Of a stretch of DNA of 5,168 bases, positions 1 to 5,168 are shown piece by piece. How positions within the stretch are numbered: position 1 is the first letter of the stretch; each line of letters starts with the position of its first letter. The translations under genes were made by a program, and so were the position numbers. Source of the DNA: Thermoleophilaceae bacterium (GTDB taxonomy: Bacteria > Actinomycetota > Thermoleophilia > Solirubrobacterales > Thermoleophilaceae); contig JACCXP010000166.1 of NCBI GenBank assembly GCA_013696905.1, positions 1 to 5,168 on the forward strand, read 5' to 3'. The notes below the pieces were generated by a model. It saw nothing but the letters and a program-made list of their open reading frames with translations, was not told the DNA's origin and did no database searches.

Positions 1-510
1 CGGCACCGCGCGGATCGCCTCCCTGCCGGCGATGATCACCACCGGCAGCACCAGCAGCCCGAGGGTGAGCGCTCCGGCCAGCACCACGCGCCCCAGGTCG
101 AGCGGTCCGCGGACGAGGAACGCGAGGCCGAGGATCCCGTAGACGATCGAGGGCACCGCCGCGAGGTTCTGGATGTTGACCTCGATCAGCCGGTTCCACC
201 AGCGATTGTTGTCGGCGTACTCCTCGAGGTACACCGCGGTGGCCACTCCCACCGGCACGACGAAGGCCGCGCACACCGCCATCAGCCAGAGCGTGCCGGT
301 CAGTGCTGAGAAGAGGCCTGCGATCTCGGGGTTGAACGAGGCGAACGAGGTGATGAACTGGACGTCGACCTGGCCGAGTCCGTCGCGCAGGACGTCGACG
401 ACGAGCGTTGCGAGCAGCGCCATTGCCGCGAACAGACAGAACAGCAGCAGCAGGCGGAAGCCAGTCTCCTTCGCGCGTGCGCGTGCATTGGAGGCCGGTA
501 GCGCGCTCAC
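1..510 (-). CDS. pstA: Phosphate ABC transporter permease PstA, C-terminus cut off by the left window edge
   Basis: PstA is one of the two inner-membrane permease subunits of the PstSCAB phosphate importer; it pairs with PstC to form the channel driven by the PstB ATPase. The reading frame opens with GTG at 510 and stays open to position 1, giving 170 residues; full-length PstA is usually about 280-300. Hydrophobic segments lie near residues 18-40, 70-95, 114-134 and 142-162. Family-typical stretches are visible: [12 protein letters not shown] (about 88-99) and [15 protein letters not shown] (about 115-129). The frame leaves the window at REAIRAVP, which is the start of the EAA cytoplasmic loop that contacts PstB. 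The GTG overlaps the TGA of pstC by 4 nt (GTGA), so translation is probably coupled; only a weak AGG lies 7 nt upstream. pstB is expected beyond the left edge. An ATG at 488 is in another frame and is not the start. Confidence 0.93.
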
Positions 511-1457
511 TCGTACACCTGCCGGAAGCGCCGCACGAAGCCGATCGAGAGGGCGTTCATGATCAGCGTCATCACGAACAGCGTCGCCCCGACGGCGAAG
601 ATCGTCTTGTAGGCGACCGAGCCCGTGGCCAGGTCGCCCTTCCCCGTAGCGGCGATGAAGGCTGTCATCGTCTCGATCGCGCCGCGCGGGTCGGCGGTCA
701 GGTTCGGCTGCTGGCCTGCGGCGACGAGCACGATCATCGTCTCGCCGATCGCCCGCGAGATGCCGAGGATGATCGCGGCGGCGACACCGGAGAGCGCCGC
801 GGGGAGCACCACGCGGAGCGACACCTGGCGTTGAGTGGCGCCCAGCCCGAAGGCTCCCTCGCGCAGCGACTGCGGCACCGCCGAGAGCGAGTCCTCGGAC
901 ACCGACGCGATCGTGGGCAGCACCATGAAGCCCATCACGATCCCGGCCGAGAGCGCGTTGAACACCTGCACCTCGACCCCGAGCAGGTCGCGCAGCACTA
1001 CCGGCGTGAAGAACGTCAACGCGAAGTAGCCGAACACGATCGTCGGAACGCCGGCCAGCAGCTCGAGGATCGGCTTGAGCGTGCGCCGCACTCGCGGACG
1101 GGCGTACTCACTGAGGTAGATCGCCGATCCCAGGCCAAGGGGGATCGCGACGGCGAGCGCGATGGCTGTGATCAGGAGCGTGCCACTGATCAGGGGCAAG
1201 ACCCCGTAGGAGGGGTCGGCGAACAGCGGCGACCAATCGGTGCCGGTGAGGAAGTCGACGATGCTGACCTCGCCGAAGAAGACGATCGTCTCACCCAGCA
1301 GCGAGATCACGATCCCGACCGTCGTCAACACGGAGATCAGCGCGGCGAGGAAGAGGCCGAGCTTGATCGCGTCTTCGCCGTAGCGCCGCCGAGCGACGCC
1401 CAGGGAGGGAACCCTGGGCGTTGCGACCGGCGCTCTCGTCGTGGTGCTGGCTTCCAT
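507..1457 (-). CDS. pstC: Phosphate ABC transporter permease PstC
   Basis: PstC is the second inner-membrane permease of the Pst phosphate importer, partner of PstA. The product is 316 residues, close to the usual 300-320. Predicted membrane segments lie near residues 31-53, 87-116, 129-150, 165-187, 217-245 and 283-308. The EAA loop that docks on PstB is at about 190-212 ([15 protein letters not shown]), and the family stretches [16 protein letters not shown] (about 135-150) and [15 protein letters not shown] (about 234-248) are present. A hydrophilic, Thr/Pro/Arg-rich cytoplasmic tail occupies the first 29 residues. ATG at 1457 is chosen because the frame upstream only repeats pstS sequence out of frame and offers no start codon between the pstS stop and 1457. 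It follows pstS after a 26-nt gap and overlaps pstA by 4 nt, so it belongs to one operon. The spacing to its Shine-Dalgarno-like sequence is unusually long (listed separately). Confidence 0.96.
1396..1421 (-). repeat. Perfect 10-bp inverted repeat (hairpin) within the start of pstC
   Basis: Arms ACGCCCAGGG (1396-1405) and CCCTGGGCGT (1412-1421) are exactly complementary around a 6-nt loop. In the mRNA this would be a GC-rich stem about 37-62 nt after the pstC start codon, in codons 13-21, which encode the poorly conserved N-terminal tail. No U-tract follows, so it does not look like an intrinsic terminator. A role in lowering PstC relative to PstS, or in protecting the 3' end of a pstS transcript, is inference. 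Confidence 0.55.
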
Positions 1458-1478: not shown

Positions 1479-1485
1479 CCTCCTC
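1479..1485 (-). promoter_or_regulatory. Distant Shine-Dalgarno-like GAGGAGG for pstC, overlapping the pstS stop codon
   Basis: On the minus strand the pstS stop reads TGAGGAGG, so a strong GAGGAGG is built into the stop codon. It ends 21 nt before the pstC ATG, much further than the usual 5-10 nt, and no better ribosome binding site lies closer. The flanking CTCC and GGAG around the TGA could also pair. Either translation re-initiates from pstS or folding shortens the distance; both are inference. Confidence 0.45.
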
Positions 1486-2434
1486 AGGAGCCGAGCTCCT
1501 CCGTGCTCTTGCCGGCCTGCTCCTCGGTCATCGGCACGATCTGCGCCGACTCCGCGATCTGCTGCTGGTTCTCGAGCACGAAGTCCATGAACGCCTTGAC
1601 CTCGGGCTTGGCGAGCCCCTTGTCGCTCGGGTACATGAAGATCGGCCTCGACAGCGGCTTGTAGTCGCCCTTCTGGATCGTCTCGAGGCTCGGCTTCACG
1701 CAGCCGTCGCCGGCATCGACGCCGACGGCGTTCAGCTTGTCCTTGCTCTGCTCGAAGTAGGAGAAGCCGAAGTAGCCGAGCCCGCCCTTGTCCCCCGAGA
1801 CGCCCTGTACGAGCACGTTGTCGTCCTCGGAGGGCTGGTAGTCCTTGCGCGTGACGCCCTCCTCGCCGTTGATCTTGTCGGTGAAGAAGTCGAACGTGCC
1901 GGAGTCCGTGCCGGCGCCGAACAGCGAGACCTCCTGGTCGGGGAACTCGGGGTCGATGTCCTTGTAGCTCTGGACCTTGGAGCCCTTGTTCCACAGCTCC
2001 TTGAGCTGGTCGGTCGTCATGCAGTCGATCGCGAGCTCCTTGTTGGTGGCGACGGCGATGCCGTCGTTGGCCACCTGGATCTCCTTGTAGGAGACCTTGT
2101 TCTCCTCGCAGATCGGGACCTCCTCGTCCTTCTTGATCGGCCGTGAGGCGTCGGAGATGTCGGTCTCGCCGGCGCAGAACTTCTCGAAGCCGCCGCCGGT
2201 GCCCGATGTGCCGACCGTCACGTTCACTTCCGGGTTTTCCTGCTTGAAGGTCTCAGCCGCCGCCTGCGCGAAGGGAGCGACGGTGCTGGATCCGTCGATC
2301 GCGATCTCGCCGGAGAGCTTCTCGCCGCCGCCTCCCCCGCCGCTTTTCTTTTCCTCCTCGCCGCCTCCGCACGCCGCGGTGGTGAGGCTAAGTGCGCCCA
2401 CCAGCGCCACTACCAGCCACTTGCCTGTCCTCAC
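1484..2434 (-). CDS. pstS: Periplasmic/extracytoplasmic phosphate-binding lipoprotein PstS
   Basis: PstS captures inorganic phosphate outside the membrane and hands it to the PstCA channel. The product is 316 residues. It opens with a lipoprotein signal peptide ([17 protein letters not shown]) and a lipobox LTTAAC with the modified cysteine at residue 22, so it is membrane-anchored by lipid. A low-complexity Gly/Glu/Lys linker follows (about 23-40). Phosphate-ligand loops typical of PstS are visible: DGSSTVAPF (47-55), [10 protein letters not shown] (77-86), ISDASRPI (93-100) and [10 protein letters not shown] (175-184). Four cysteines remain in the mature body (87, 109, 138, 245), enough for disulfides outside the cell. 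The start is GTG at 2434, not ATG, preceded by AAGGGAGG four nt away and giving an intact signal peptide. It is the first gene of the pst operon, downstream of an array of PHO-box-like repeats, so induction by phosphate starvation is expected. Confidence 0.97.
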
Positions 2435-2469: not shown

Positions 2470-2475
2470 AGCCTA
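2470..2475 (-). promoter_or_regulatory. Possible -10 element (TAGGCT) of the pstS promoter
   Basis: TAGGCT on the minus strand resembles GC-rich actinobacterial -10 boxes (TAnnnT). It lies 22 nt downstream of the last PHO-box unit and 35 nt upstream of the pstS GTG, leaving room for a short leader carrying the ribosome binding site. No good -35 is seen, as expected if an activator bound to the PHO box substitutes for it. The call rests on position and a weak match only; TATCGA at 2451-2456 is an alternative but would leave almost no leader. Confidence 0.3.
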
Positions 2476-2478
2476 GGT

Positions 2479-2496
2479 GCGGGCGTCGCGCCCCGC
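2479..2496 (-). repeat. GC-rich imperfect hairpin between the PHO box and the pstS -10 candidate
   Basis: GCGGG (2479-2483) and CCCGC (2492-2496) pair around an 8-nt loop, and the loop can partly pair further with one bulged C. It lies just after the stop codon of the winged-helix gene and before the putative pstS -10, so it could end or attenuate read-through from that gene into pstS. There is no U-tract, so evidence for termination is weak. Confidence 0.3.
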
Positions 2497-2497
2497 T

Positions 2498-2541
2498 GTT
2501 ACCGATCTGTGGCCTGCTTGTGAAGAACTTGTAAACGCTCG
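2498..2541 (-). promoter_or_regulatory. Putative PHO box of pstS: four 11-bp direct repeats
   Basis: On the minus strand the array reads as four consecutive 11-nt units, each ending in AC: CGAGCGTTTAC, AAGTTCTTCAC, AAGCAGGCCAC and AGATCGGTAAC (2541 down to 2498). The 11-bp spacing and the TTCAC-like core match known PhoB/PhoP operators, in which tandem winged-helix domains bind successive turns of one DNA face; the Streptomyces unit is GTTCACC plus 4 nt. The array points toward pstS and ends 63 nt before its start codon. It overlaps the last 13 codons and the stop codon of the winged-helix gene. The periodicity is seen directly; the regulator that binds is inferred from the neighbouring genes. 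Confidence 0.72.
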
Positions 2542-2864
2542 GCGGAGAATCGATACCCGAAGCCGAAGTGGGTGTGGATGTAGCGCCAATCAGGCAGCTC
2601 GCGCTCGAGCTTCATCCGCAGCTTCGCGACGTACACGTCCACCGAGCGGTCGTGCTTGTGGAACGGCTGCCCCCAGACGACCGCGTACAGCTCCTCGCGC
2701 GAGACGATCCGCTCCGGTCGACGCGCGAGCGCCGTCAGCAGCTCGAGCTCGCGCACGGTCAACGCGACCGCCCGCCCGTCCACGAGCGCGGCATAGTCTC
2801 GGGGGCGGATCTCGAGCCGACCCGCACGCAGCACCTCGCCGCCTGGAGGGCTCACCTCGTTCAT
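2499..2864 (-). CDS. Stand-alone OmpR/PhoB-type winged-helix DNA-binding protein (no receiver domain)
   Basis: A 121-residue cytoplasmic protein consisting almost entirely of a Trans_reg_C winged helix (about 17-106), the output domain of OmpR/PhoB response regulators. Visible elements: the initial strands (LEIRP...DGRAVALT), helix [14 protein letters not shown] (37-50), [10 protein letters not shown] (56-65), the recognition helix [17 protein letters not shown] (72-88) and the wing [12 protein letters not shown] (95-106). There is no N-terminal receiver, so no phosphoacceptor Asp. ATG at 2864 is chosen because GAGGAGG lies 11 nt upstream; the frame stays open further upstream, but that extension crosses the second PHO box and the neighbouring gene's promoter and has no recognisable domain. 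The gene lies between two PHO-box arrays and is followed by pstS on the same strand. The likely role is to bind PHO boxes and modulate pst expression together with, or against, the divergent full-length regulator. It could be an activator, an antagonist or a partner; sequence alone cannot decide. Confidence 0.82.
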
Positions 2865-2875
2865 GGGCGAGCAAG

Positions 2876-2882
2876 CCTCCTC
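2876..2882 (-). promoter_or_regulatory. Ribosome binding site deciding the start of the winged-helix gene
   Basis: GAGGAGG on the minus strand ends 11 nt before the ATG at 2864. The spacing is slightly long but the match is strong, and it rules against the longer reading that would begin at 3056. Confidence 0.6.
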
Positions 2883-2900
2883 GGCCGGCTCCGAGACCCC

Positions 2901-2944
2901 GTTACCCGCTCGTGATGGCGGTGTTAACAGGCTGTGAAAGGCGC
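2901..2944 (-). promoter_or_regulatory. Putative PHO box of the winged-helix gene: four 11-bp direct repeats
   Basis: On the minus strand four consecutive 11-nt units each end in AC: GCGCCTTTCAC, AGCCTGTTAAC, ACCGCCATCAC and GAGCGGGTAAC (2944 down to 2901). The architecture is the same as the array before pstS, and the last unit of both arrays ends in GGTAAC. The array lies 36 nt upstream of the winged-helix start and points toward it, which suggests that gene is part of the phosphate regulon and may autoregulate. Its far edge is 48 nt upstream of the divergent response regulator ATG, so binding here could also affect that promoter. The repeat is seen directly; function is inferred. Confidence 0.7.
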
Positions 2945-2977
2945 CCTGGTTCCGTCCTCGGCGGATGCGACCGTGCG

Positions 2978-2983
2978 TACACT
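2978..2983 (+). promoter_or_regulatory. Possible -10 element (TACACT) giving a leaderless response regulator mRNA
   Basis: TACACT matches four of six bases of TATAAT and ends 9 nt before the ATG at 2993. Transcription starting at the usual distance would begin within a few nt of the start codon. No Shine-Dalgarno sequence precedes this ATG, consistent with a leaderless transcript, which is common in actinobacteria. No convincing -35 is seen. Confidence 0.35.
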
Positions 2984-2992
2984 TTGTCTCGA

Positions 2993-3844
2993 ATGCGAGA
3001 TCATCTGCACGCGGTGGCCTCCTTTCCCGACTCCTCCGAGCTGCCCCCGGTCGCAAGCCCTCAGCAGGGCGCGCTGCGCCTGGCGGTGATCGACGCGGAC
3101 TCGGGCTTCGTGCACGTGCTCTCGAAGCGGCTCGAGGGGATGGGCTGGCAGTTCCGCTCGCTCACCTCGGCCCCTCCGCTCGACGAGCTCGTCGCGCAGC
3201 GGCTGAACGCGCTGATCGTGGATCCGACCTGCCTCGGCGCGCGCGGGTGGGACTTCCTCGAGCAGGTGTGCTCTGCGTTGCCCGGGCTCGGCGTGCTCGT
3301 CTGCACGGGACGCTCGACCGTTGCCCAGCGGGTCCGCGGCCTGCGCCTCGGCGCCGACGACTGGGTCACCAAGCCGTGCCATCCGTCGGAGGTGATCGCT
3401 CGCGTCGAGGCCGTTGCCCGCCGCCGCCGACGGGCTCGGATGCAGGAGGAGACCGGTCCGCTGGTCGTCGGCGAGCTCGAGATCCGCCTCGACCAGTTCC
3501 AGGCCTTCGCGGCGGGTCGCAGCGCCGAGCTGACGCGGCGCGAGTTCGAGGTCCTTCAGCTGCTGGTCGACGCCCAGGGCCAGGTGCTACAGCGCGAGGA
3601 GATCTACCAACGCGTCTGGGGCTACGCAATGGCCCACGGGGACCGCTCGGTGGACGTGTTCGTGCGCAAGCTGCGCCACAAGCTCGAGCGCTCCTCGCCG
3701 GCCTGGGTCTACATCCACACGCACTTCGGCATCGGCTACCGGTTCGAGGCCCAGCTCAAGTCGGCGGCCGACGTGCTGGGCGAAGAGCCGGCCGCGCCGG
3801 ACCGCCCGCCGGGCGCGCTCGCCGATCCCGCCACCAGCGCGTGA
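2993..3844 (+). CDS. PhoB/PhoP-like two-component response regulator (receiver plus winged helix)
   Basis: A 283-residue OmpR/PhoB-family response regulator, probably controlling the phosphate regulon. The receiver covers about 28-143: the phosphoacceptor is D77 (ALIVDPT), with T105 (VLVCTG) and K127 (WVTKP) as the conserved switch Thr and Lys. The acidic pocket reads VIDAD (32-36): D34 is present, but Ala35 replaces the second Asp that normally binds Mg2+, and the Pro usual four residues after the phosphoacceptor is absent. An Arg-rich linker (143-149) leads to the winged helix (about 162-251), with recognition helix DRSVDVFVRKLRHKLER (217-233) and wing YIHTHFGIGYRF (240-251). A Pro/Ala-rich tail follows. 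The first 27 residues are an extension ahead of the receiver; ATG 2993 lacks a Shine-Dalgarno, and GTG at 3014 is a possible alternative. It is divergent from the stand-alone winged helix and overlaps the PhoU-like gene by 4 nt. No cognate histidine kinase is in view. Confidence 0.9.
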   Translation: MRDHLHAVASFPDSSELPPVASPQQGALRLAVIDADSGFVHVLSKRLEGMGWQFRSLTSAPPLDELVAQRLNALIVDPTCLGARGWDFLEQVCSALPGLGVLVCTGRSTVAQRVRGLRLGADDWVTKPCHPSEVIARVEAVARRRRRARMQEETGPLVVGELEIRLDQFQAFAAGRSAELTRREFEVLQLLVDAQGQVLQREEIYQRVWGYAMAHGDRSVDVFVRKLRHKLERSSPAWVYIHTHFGIGYRFEAQLKSAADVLGEEPAAPDRPPGALADPATSA

Positions 3845-4476
3845 GCCTGCTCCGTCGGTCGCCGGTCCTCGACACCGGCATCTTTGCGCTCTTCGAGGCC
3901 TCCGGTAGCAATGCCCAGCGCGCGTGCGTGCTGTTGCGCGACATGCTCCAAGACTTCCCCGAGCGCTCCGACCTCGCGCGCGACATCCTCAAGTGCGAGC
4001 AGGACGGCGACCGGATCACCCACGACATCATCCATCGCCTGTCAGGCAACGGCCACCGGCCGGAGCCCCACCGCTTCGGCGCCGGCGACCTCTACTCGCT
4101 GGCCAAGCGCCTCGACGACATCGTCGATTACGCCGAGCAGGCCGCGGACACGCTGGTGATCTACGGCATCGAGGCGCCGATGGAGCAGGCCGAGGGCCTG
4201 GCGGAAGTGCTGGTGCAGGCGAGCACAGCCGTCAACGCAGCTCTCGGCGCGCTGCGCAGCGAGGGCGAGCTGCAGGGGCTTCTGGTCGAGATCCACCAGC
4301 TCGAGAACGAGGGAGATCGCCTCTCACGCGACGCGATCGCTGCGCTGTTCGCGAACGGCATCGATCCGATGGTCGTGATTCGCTGGAAGGACATCTTCGA
4401 GCTGCTCGAGGAAGCGATCGATTCCTGCGAGAGCGTGGCCCACACGCTCGAGGGAATCTCCCTCGAGAGCCGCTAG
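3841..4476 (+). CDS. DUF47 / PhoU-like protein
   Basis: A 211-residue, all-helical cytoplasmic protein of the DUF47 (PhoU-divergent) family; length is normal for the family. PhoU proteins bind metal clusters and relay transporter state to the phosphate two-component system, while DUF47 members often accompany Pit-type transporters. The two-fold PhoU repeat is visible: LARDILKCEQDGDRITHDII (45-64) followed by DLYSLAKRLDDIVDYAEQAAD (83-103), and LLVEIHQLENEGDRLSRDAI (147-166) followed by KDIFELLEEAIDSCESVAHTL (183-203). The acidic E/D-x-x-x-D motifs expected to bind metal are kept. The start is GTG at 3841, overlapping the response regulator's TGA (GTGA); no ribosome binding site precedes it, so translation is probably coupled. 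That coupling, and the convergent pst operon, suggest a role in phosphate signalling with the regulator rather than in Pit transport. A Pit gene is not present in the window. Confidence 0.88.
   Translation: MSLLRRSPVLDTGIFALFEASGSNAQRACVLLRDMLQDFPERSDLARDILKCEQDGDRITHDIIHRLSGNGHRPEPHRFGAGDLYSLAKRLDDIVDYAEQAADTLVIYGIEAPMEQAEGLAEVLVQASTAVNAALGALRSEGELQGLLVEIHQLENEGDRLSRDAIAALFANGIDPMVVIRWKDIFELLEEAIDSCESVAHTLEGISLESR
4447..4467. terminator. Perfect 9-bp hairpin at the convergent gene ends
   Basis: Arms CTCGAGGGA (4447-4455) and TCCCTCGAG (4459-4467) pair exactly around the 3-nt loop ATC. The hairpin lies in the last codons of the DUF47 gene, 7 nt before its stop codon, and 18 nt beyond the stop of the convergent PHP gene. 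A second small stem, GCCGC (4469-4473) with GCGGC (4479-4483), follows. Being symmetric, it could act on transcripts from both directions. There is no U-tract on either strand, so it may halt exonucleases rather than terminate; the call is tentative. Confidence 0.45.
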
Positions 4477-4485
4477 CCGCGGCGG

Positions 4486-5168
4486 TCAGGCGGCAGCCAG
4501 CGCCACGGCGTTCGGCGCGAGCCCGCGTGTGAGCAGCTGGATCGGGGCGACGTCCGTCAGCCGGCAGGCAAGCGACTCGCTGATGCCCGACCCGACCATC
4601 TGCTCGAAGCCGAGCGACATCGCGGGCACGCGCCACCCGCCGTGGGCATCGGAGGCGACCACGCCCGCCAAGCCTTCGCGCACGAGGTAGAAGGCGGCAA
4701 GCTCCGCGTCGGCGCCATGCTGGCCGGTGAGCGAGAAGGCGTTCACCTGCAGGACGGTGCCGGCGGCGACCTCGCGCCGCAGGCCAGCGGCATCGCCCTC
4801 GAGCACGCCGGCGCTGCGCTCCGGGTGGGCCATCACGACGCCGAACCCGCGCTCGCGCAGCTCGTTGGCCGCGGCGTGCACGCTCTCGTCGAACCCGCTG
4901 AAGGGAGCCTCGAGCAACAGCCAGCGGGCGCCGAGGGGGCCGACCGCGATCGTCTCGAGGTCGTGCTGGCCGAGCGTTCCCACGAACTCGTGCCCGAGCT
5001 CCGCCCCGCAGCACACCGACAGCTCCACGCCTTCGCGCTCGAGCCGATCCTGGAGCTCCTCGACGCGCACGGGCAGGTCGCTCACGTGCGAGACCTGATC
5101 GGCCCGCACGTGGGGGGTGGCGATGACGGTCGAGGTCCAGTCGCGCACCGCGGCGTCGGCCAGCTCGA
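4486..5168 (-). CDS. CpsB/CapC-type PHP-domain tyrosine phosphatase, N-terminus beyond the right edge
   Basis: A metal-dependent phosphoesterase of the polymerase-and-histidinol-phosphatase (PHP) fold, most like CpsB/CapC/YwqE protein-tyrosine phosphatases, which dephosphorylate the kinases that control capsule and exopolysaccharide synthesis. 226 residues are visible and the frame is open to the edge, so the gene is 5'-truncated. The GTG at 5148 is inside the domain (just before VIATPHV) and is not taken as the start. Metal-ligand motifs seen, numbered from the edge: ATPH (H19), GAEL (E56), MAHPE (H114) and SDAH (D173, H175). The N-terminal D-x-H-x-H motif expected for the family would lie outside the window. 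It converges on the DUF47 gene with a 9-nt gap and no shared operon, so a link to phosphate metabolism is not supported by context. A related PHP phosphoesterase with another substrate is possible. Confidence 0.82.
   Translation of the reverse strand, partial: ELADAAVRDWTSTVIATPHVRADQVSHVSDLPVRVEELQDRLEREGVELSVCCGAELGHEFVGTLGQHDLETIAVGPLGARWLLLEAPFSGFDESVHAAANELRERGFGVVMAHPERSAGVLEGDAAGLRREVAAGTVLQVNAFSLTGQHGADAELAAFYLVREGLAGVVASDAHGGWRVPAMSLGFEQMVGSGISESLACRLTDVAPIQLLTRGLAPNAVALAAA

Follow-up and report, generated by a model that had tools for sequence, protein, structure and literature searches.

A receiver-less PhoB-type protein encoded before pstS is conserved in one bacterial order and is a candidate competitor in phosphate control

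Analysis of the window, the 5168 bp stretch of DNA that makes up an entire MAG contig, confirmed at the level of sequence that a PhoB-type DNA-binding domain is encoded there as a separate protein (S1), and extended this observation from one contig to a family that is widespread in an order. The anatomy of the locus supports the suggestion made in the initial annotation that S1 takes part in a feedback loop. Based on these data, we tentatively propose that S1 is a phosphate-regulated, phosphorylation-blind competitor of the full-length response regulator encoded beside it (RR) and so a brake on phosphate uptake, a reading that we regard as plausible, if somewhat short of probable.

Table 1. 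Genes and predicted regulatory elements of the window (positions in bp; scores of operators are matrix scores).
Feature	Position	Strand	Evidence or remark
pstA permease, cut by contig end	1..510	-	position behind pstC; G002 counterpart
pstC permease	507..1457	-	TIGR02138, 268.2 bits, cut-off 196.45
pstS, phosphate-binding protein	1484..2434	-	TIGR02136, 266.6 bits, cut-off 206.6
-10-like TAGGCT of pstS	2470..2475	-	sequence inspection; pstS-promoter offset (n=77), shifted one base
Predicted pstS operator, four direct repeats	2496..2535	-	score 52.6
S1, receiver-less PhoB-type DNA-binding protein, 121 aa	2499..2864	-	Pfam Trans_reg_C alone
-10-like GAGGCT of S1	2874..2879	-	ATG begins 10 bp after its T
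Predicted S1 operator, four direct repeats, 11-bp period	2899..2938	-	score 37.1
RR, full-length response regulator, receiver + PhoB-type domain, 283 aa	2993..3844	+	Pfam Response_reg, Trans_reg_C; divergent from S1
PhoU-like DUF47 protein, overlaps RR stop	3841..4476	+	PF01865, 70.8 bits

The S1 gene begins with an ATG at 2864 and ends with a TAA at 2499–2501 of the minus strand, exactly where it had been placed before. A Pfam scan of the 121-residue protein matched Trans_reg_C across profile positions 1–77 of 77 (82.2 bits, cut-off 26.2) and gave no match to Response_reg, and thus no receiver with a phosphoacceptor Asp, which bears out the original description of S1 as receiver-less. The structural model of S1 has the N-terminal sheet, recognition helix and C-terminal hairpin of a winged helix and only disordered ends outside it. 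The protein stops 11–15 residues past the domain, which is too short for a sensor or membrane part, and the tail after the domain profile was likewise no more than 15 residues long in 54 of the 65 short genes, the window's included. BLASTP aligned S1 to RR without gaps at 51 identities in 98 residues, close to the gapless match to the C-terminal domain of RR that had been counted by hand at about 48 of 90. RR itself matched Response_reg with 35.6 bits (cut-off 30.2) and Trans_reg_C with 80.3 bits, and its acid pair, phosphoacceptor Asp, Thr and Lys are all present. Upstream of its ATG the S1 frame is open to 3056, but these 64 further codons are too few for a receiver to fit in the frame, and the short ATG is favored because a conserved -10-like element stands 10 bp before it.

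The pstA fragment has 73% identity over 168 aa to the gene in the same place in G002. In the opposite direction (2993–4476), the RR gene overlaps that of the PhoU-like DUF47 protein and within the window is followed by no histidine kinase gene. A CpsB/CapC-type PHP gene (4486–5148, minus strand) is convergent to the DUF47 gene, and a PHP gene is kept near RR in several loci of relatives from the window's family.

Short open frames were the best match in many of the 120 relatives searched. The locus set comprised 101 pst loci (the window and 100 others, from 100 of the 120 relatives), from which we recovered 65 full receiver-less domains (S) and 95 regulator domains, 91 of these pst-linked; two further domains, truncated by contig ends, were excluded. 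As some loci were centered on the short gene, 65 S domains in 101 loci is not a measure of prevalence. The 20 genomes dropped (G007, G015, G018, G021, G024, G027, G029, G030, G046, G059, G062, G068, G071, G073, G079, G100, G110, G113, G117 and G119) mostly had no clear listed match to pstC or the short gene, and some of them have S1 or S2, a second receiver-less family described below (G068, G110). Of the 65 S sequences, 25 entered A1.

A tree built from all 160 domains placed 61 of the 65 S domains, including that of the window, in one clade (97/92) and the 91 pst-linked RR domains in a separate one (81/98). The four S rows outside the clade were those of G092 and G060 and the S2-type copies of G102 and G048. 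The S1 sub-clades largely match the family codes f1, f2 and f3, with G048 and G064 among the misplaced rows. As judged from these sequences, the split between S1 and RR is old and is not a local duplication of the neighboring gene; a recent local duplication of RR was ruled out by the clade structure. In an outgroup tree (73 rows, 93 columns) S1 was paraphyletic in the best tree, although a single S1 clade was not rejected (AU p 0.252); one outgroup row fell among RR, and the root and the order of the splits are unsure in this tree.

Searches of 399 genomes of the class gave matches at E <= 1.9e-39 in at least 104 of the 176 genomes from the window's order and in 0 of the 223 from other orders, both being hand counts at a limit set after seeing the table, and the former a lower bound as the S1 members of G055 and G104 score worse than the limit. 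The strongest match outside the order was 1.7e-34. On the basis of these matches, S1 looks confined to one order and is widespread there. The best 80 of 146 confirmed places included loci named as Solirubrobacterales, Solirubrobacteraceae, Thermoleophilaceae, Solirubrobacter, Patulibacter, Conexibacter and Siliceabacter, the rest of the 80 being titled only Thermoleophilia, Actinomycetota, Actinomycetes or Actinobacteria; these records overlap the genome set. Isolates with collection numbers that carry S1 include Solirubrobacter soli DSM 22325, Patulibacter minatonensis DSM 18081 and P. americanus DSM 16676.

The small size of the MAG contig, of which the window is the entire 5168 bp, and an S1 frame that is open upstream to 3056 would fit an assembly error, a frameshift or the decay of a full-length regulator into a relic. 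We consider such an origin of S1 highly improbable. An in-frame stop lies 8–24 codons upstream of the short domain in 22 of the 65 S genes, the start codon is often about 11 codons ahead of the domain, the window's ATG follows its conserved -10-like element by 10 bp, and the family forms one old, constrained clade present in many genomes and named isolates. The initial annotation had named, among others, two findings that would speak against its own reading, a receiver lost by frameshift or misassembly and a short form peculiar to this contig; the former is ruled out by the short genes of the relatives and the latter is at odds with a clade of 61 of 65 domains and with the distribution of the family in the order. 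One further variant was seen in a pst locus of G064 (L100, 7132–7737, minus strand), where a single open frame encodes, one after the other, two strongly diverged receiver-less domains.

In 54 of 65 cases the S gene is followed, on the same strand and within 500 bp, by a pstS-like gene, and the placement of S1 directly before pstS, true in the window, is thus common in the family. RR was placed more variably relative to S (n=65): 16 cases have it divergent and 21 have it ahead of S on the same strand, while in 19 it lies downstream, at the distal end of the operon, and in 9 the locus has no RR. Of the grouping of short gene, pstS and divergent regulator raised in the initial annotation, the link to pstS is kept, while a divergent pair is one of three layouts and was ruled out as the defining arrangement. 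In Solirubrobacter soli (L143), for example, one operator precedes the short gene and a second one precedes pstS, after which come two permeases and the regulator. A further 34 loci, all five sampled f4 loci among them, have RR but no S, which indicates that the S1 design is not essential to the system.

An operator matrix trained on the regions upstream of pstS settled on four direct repeats whose period is 11 bp. PMC4415409 describes the PHO box as direct repeat units of 11 nt, with the core GTTCACC in Streptomyces coelicolor, and the four 11-bp repeats found here fit that description. The predicted S1 operator is composed of the units TTCAC, TTAAC, ATCAC and GTAAC, which are spaced by 11 bp as tandem repeats in promoter position, and its score of 37.1 compares with highest background scores of 7.0 for shuffled loci and 3.6 for loci resampled by a Markov model (202 strand scans in each case). 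The earlier statement that S1 lies under a PHO box of its own thus holds for the predicted operator.

At a loose limit (score > 2.5), operators were predicted ahead of 55 of the 65 S genes and of 89 of the 96 pstS genes, bearing in mind that the matrix, for which the window's own pstS region was also used, favors pstS scores and that an S operator may have been counted for pstS if both lie within 600 bp. No upstream site was found for 10 of the 65 S genes, and 51 of 65 had one at a score > 15. There were 126 sites with a score > 25 in 1.65 Mb, and 117 of these lay upstream of an S or pstS gene (80 upstream of pstS, 37 of S and 9 elsewhere). Loci with RR but without a complete S had exactly one such site in 35 of 36 cases; at a score > 20, 32 of the same 36 loci had one site, three had two and one had none. 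In L042, identical copies of the pstS operator stand in tandem, 55 bp apart (9327–9366 and 9382–9421).

The two kinds of operator are followed by a -10-like element, nAnnnT, at one shared offset, with A at +21 in 0.82 of 77 pstS and 0.84 of 51 S promoters and T at +25 in 0.86 of both sets. In the window, 19 bp separate the predicted S1 operator from its -10-like hexamer. As the ATG begins only 10 bp after the T of this hexamer, a leaderless S1 mRNA is predicted, and the start codon is about 10 bp behind the -10-like element in most of the S genes listed. The S gene is thus predicted to have a promoter of the same build as that of pstS and a leaderless mRNA. The operators are not identical, differing in repeats 3 and 4, and position 39 is A in 0.04 of 51 S operators versus 0.86 of 85 pstS operators.

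The last 37 bp of S1 lie within the predicted pstS operator of the window, whose fourth repeat contributes the TAA stop codon of S1. Such an overlap with the end of the S frame occurs in 18 of 42 S genes that have a downstream site, window included, and in 17 of these 18 it spans the same 37 bp, the frame reaching its end at an identical point of the fourth repeat. The C-terminal tail of S1 (2499–2546), disordered in the model, is in this way encoded by pstS operator DNA (2496–2535). These features might be taken to mean that the operator is the conserved element and the S1 reading frame its by-product. We find this scarcely credible, as the overlap is limited to the last dozen codons and the 93-column domain is conserved as protein even where the operator follows the stop; for the domain, protein-level conservation contradicts such an origin.

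A second receiver-less family, S2, formed one clade (95/94) in the 73-row outgroup tree. The window's own genome has a copy on another contig (L221, G000:C242 4697–4972, minus strand), followed by a pstS-like gene (3861–4451) and permeases (2758–3705 and 1771–2670). Of the 16 S2 copies examined, three (G000, G062 and G070) stand immediately ahead of a pst-type operon; for the remaining 13 there was no such operon directly after the gene or the contig was too short. Copies related to that of the window's genome occur in G004, G006, G062, G070, G069, G048, G403, G336, G102, G014, G057 and four f4 genomes, so that S2 is present in f4, where the sampled loci have no S1. Repeat-like TTCAC motifs stand ahead of several S2 genes.

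To compare S1 with RR at the level of individual residues, we considered the surfaces that would contact DNA and RNA polymerase. Eleven recognition-helix and wing residues (R60, D63, V64, Y65, R70, K72, T85, H86, G88, G90 and Y91) are invariant in S1 across all 54 loci with both forms, and ten of them are identical in RR, in line with the remark in the initial annotation that the two proteins have recognition helix and wing in common. Other positions differ: the equivalent of PhoB R200 is Arg in 53 of 54 RR and in 10 of 54 S1, and at position 198 S1 has Tyr where RR has Phe, such that the specificity of S1 may differ from that of RR. Such consistent Tyr/Phe and Arg differences within the recognition helix, together with S1 operators that are unlike those of pstS in repeats 3 and 4, could mean that S1, as a one-component regulator, has separate targets or an unknown ligand, and that only its gene is under phosphate control. 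The ten common residues, the persistence of a neighboring pstS-like gene through three locus layouts and a model with only disordered ends beyond the winged helix all weigh against a separate regulon, which we regard as distinctly improbable.

PMC3348028 names W184, G185, V190 and D192 of PhoB as RNA polymerase contacts, and by alignment to 1gxp these map within or border the loop between a conserved Trp and a conserved Asp. Mean pairwise identity of this loop was 0.85 in RR (rest 0.67), 0.60 in S2 (rest 0.50) and 0.32 in S1 (rest 0.54), where 59 of the 65 S rows were taken as S1 (dropped were two of G064, those of G092 and G060, and two S2). Within S1 the loop had the lowest identity of four regions compared, the helix having 0.78 and the wing 0.84. 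By contrast, the S2 loop keeps G, M and D in 15 of 16 copies each, at an overall divergence comparable to that of S1 (0.59), and none of 1000 S1 subsets of 16 matched the loop conservation of S2. Because S2 is equally receiver-less and keeps the loop, loss of the receiver alone does not explain the state of the S1 loop, and the notion that the RR loop is conserved only for contact with the receiver is weakened by the same observation. A newly conserved Arg in the S1 loop (50 of 59) is perhaps a contact of its own.

Based on these comparisons, we propose that S1 operates as follows. When phosphate is scarce, S1 would likely be induced from its own PHO-type promoter, presumably by RR. It would be expected to sit on the operators of 11-bp repeats that RR is predicted to bind, those of both S1 and pstS, and would compete with RR there. 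Operator-bound S1 would recruit RNA polymerase poorly, and S1 would in this way be a phosphorylation-blind brake that exerts negative feedback on pstS and on itself; induction by RR, occupancy of the two operators, competition and the sign of the effect are all inferred. The grounds for supposing that S1 occupies operators without recruiting polymerase well are the retained DNA-contact surfaces, the degenerate polymerase loop and the S2 control. Antagonist, timer and locked-on activator had been offered as options for S1, and the retained DNA-contact positions together with the degenerate polymerase-contact loop favor the antagonist, as far as sequence can indicate. Further observations temper this reading. 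The equivalents of W184 and D192 are kept in 54 and 51 of 54 loci, respectively, and the window's copy keeps both of these and that of G185, which counts against a brake. In addition, pstS operators are alike with and without S1 among the matches listed, so no adaptation to a competitor is visible.

The main rival is that S1 is a locked-on activator, which once induced would activate pstS and itself without phosphorylation and thereby provide positive feedback, memory or bistability. It is the main rival because the PhoB effector domain without its receiver binds DNA constitutively, independent of phosphorylation, according to passages of PMC4415409 that cite Ellison and McCleary 2000. The Trp and Asp contact positions kept in the family, and the Gly kept in the window's S1, are in keeping with an activator, as is the activator geometry common to the S1 and pstS promoters; RoeA, a PhoB-like protein with no phosphorylation domain, is reported to be an activator (PMC10101115). 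However, the loop is degenerate in S1 and not in the equally receiver-less S2, and the G185 equivalent has been lost in 19 of 54 S1 (kept in 35 of 54), and on balance we think a locked-on activator rather unlikely. In either case, a conserved, operator-linked regulator that consists of a DNA-binding half alone would give the system a simple brake or latch of its own, indifferent to phosphorylation, and the contrast between S1 and S2 makes the sign of the S1 effect directly testable.

Comparison with known systems places S1 closest in build to PhoB/PhoP of the OmpR/PhoB family (effector domain 1gxp), with which it has in common a winged helix with recognition helix and wing, and tandem 11-bp PHO-box-type direct repeats upstream of pstS. 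It differs from them in having no receiver or phosphorylation site, in its degenerate polymerase loop and in being encoded beside a full-length relative. The receiver-deleted PhoB has the same domain but is a laboratory construct, whereas S1 occurs naturally, as a conserved gene under a predicted promoter of its own. CadC and ToxR domains were among the structural matches of the S1 model. These one-component regulators are like S1 in having a winged helix without a receiver. ToxR and CadC join the winged helix to membrane and sensor parts, and S1, which ends 11–15 residues after the domain, has no fused part. For CadC, the joined membrane and sensor parts are described in the abstract of PMC5430869. 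ChxR and HP1043 resemble S1 in being independent of phosphorylation, but both keep a receiver, which is degenerate in HP1043, and S1 has none.

The closest published protein that we found, outside phosphate control, is RoeA of Yersinia entomophaga, which PMC10101115 describes as a 15 kDa protein with a PhoB-like winged helix and no phosphorylation domain. RoeA differs from S1 in that it controls exoprotein release, in its C-terminal extension of up to 40 residues, which S1 does not have, and in that no paired full-length regulator is mentioned in the passages describing it, whereas S1 has RR. A search of the open full-text literature, with partial coverage and by ranked matches, found no receiver-less PhoB in a phosphate system. 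To our knowledge, feedback in two-component systems has mostly been described as acting via kinases, phosphatases and the autoregulation of full-length pairs.

Considering both receiver-less families, one order's phosphate response might be built on receiver-less PhoB proteins, with S1 as a natural dominant-negative PhoB belonging to the very regulon that it holds back, and S2, its activation loop intact, as a phosphorylation-free activator that stands before a second pst-type operon in the window's genome. This broader scheme, drawn from sequence comparison, appears unlikely as it stands, but if true, transcription of S1 and S2 would, in addition to phosphorylation, determine how deep the starvation response goes and how long it lasts.

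The acid pair and Lys are invariant in the 91 pst-linked RR, and the phosphoacceptor Asp is present in 86 and replaced by Asn in five; the receiver Thr/Ser is absent in 10 of 91. All 55 RR from loci with a short gene have the phosphoacceptor Asp. Among the matches listed for 15 genomes (all matches for nine of them), no HisKA was found within 10 kb of a pst regulator except in G066, where the match adjoins another regulator. In all five sampled f4 genomes (L075, L077, L080, L082 and L085), RR has Asn in place of the phosphoacceptor Asp and the locus has no S1; judging from this substitution, the f4 full-length regulator may be phosphorylation-blind itself.
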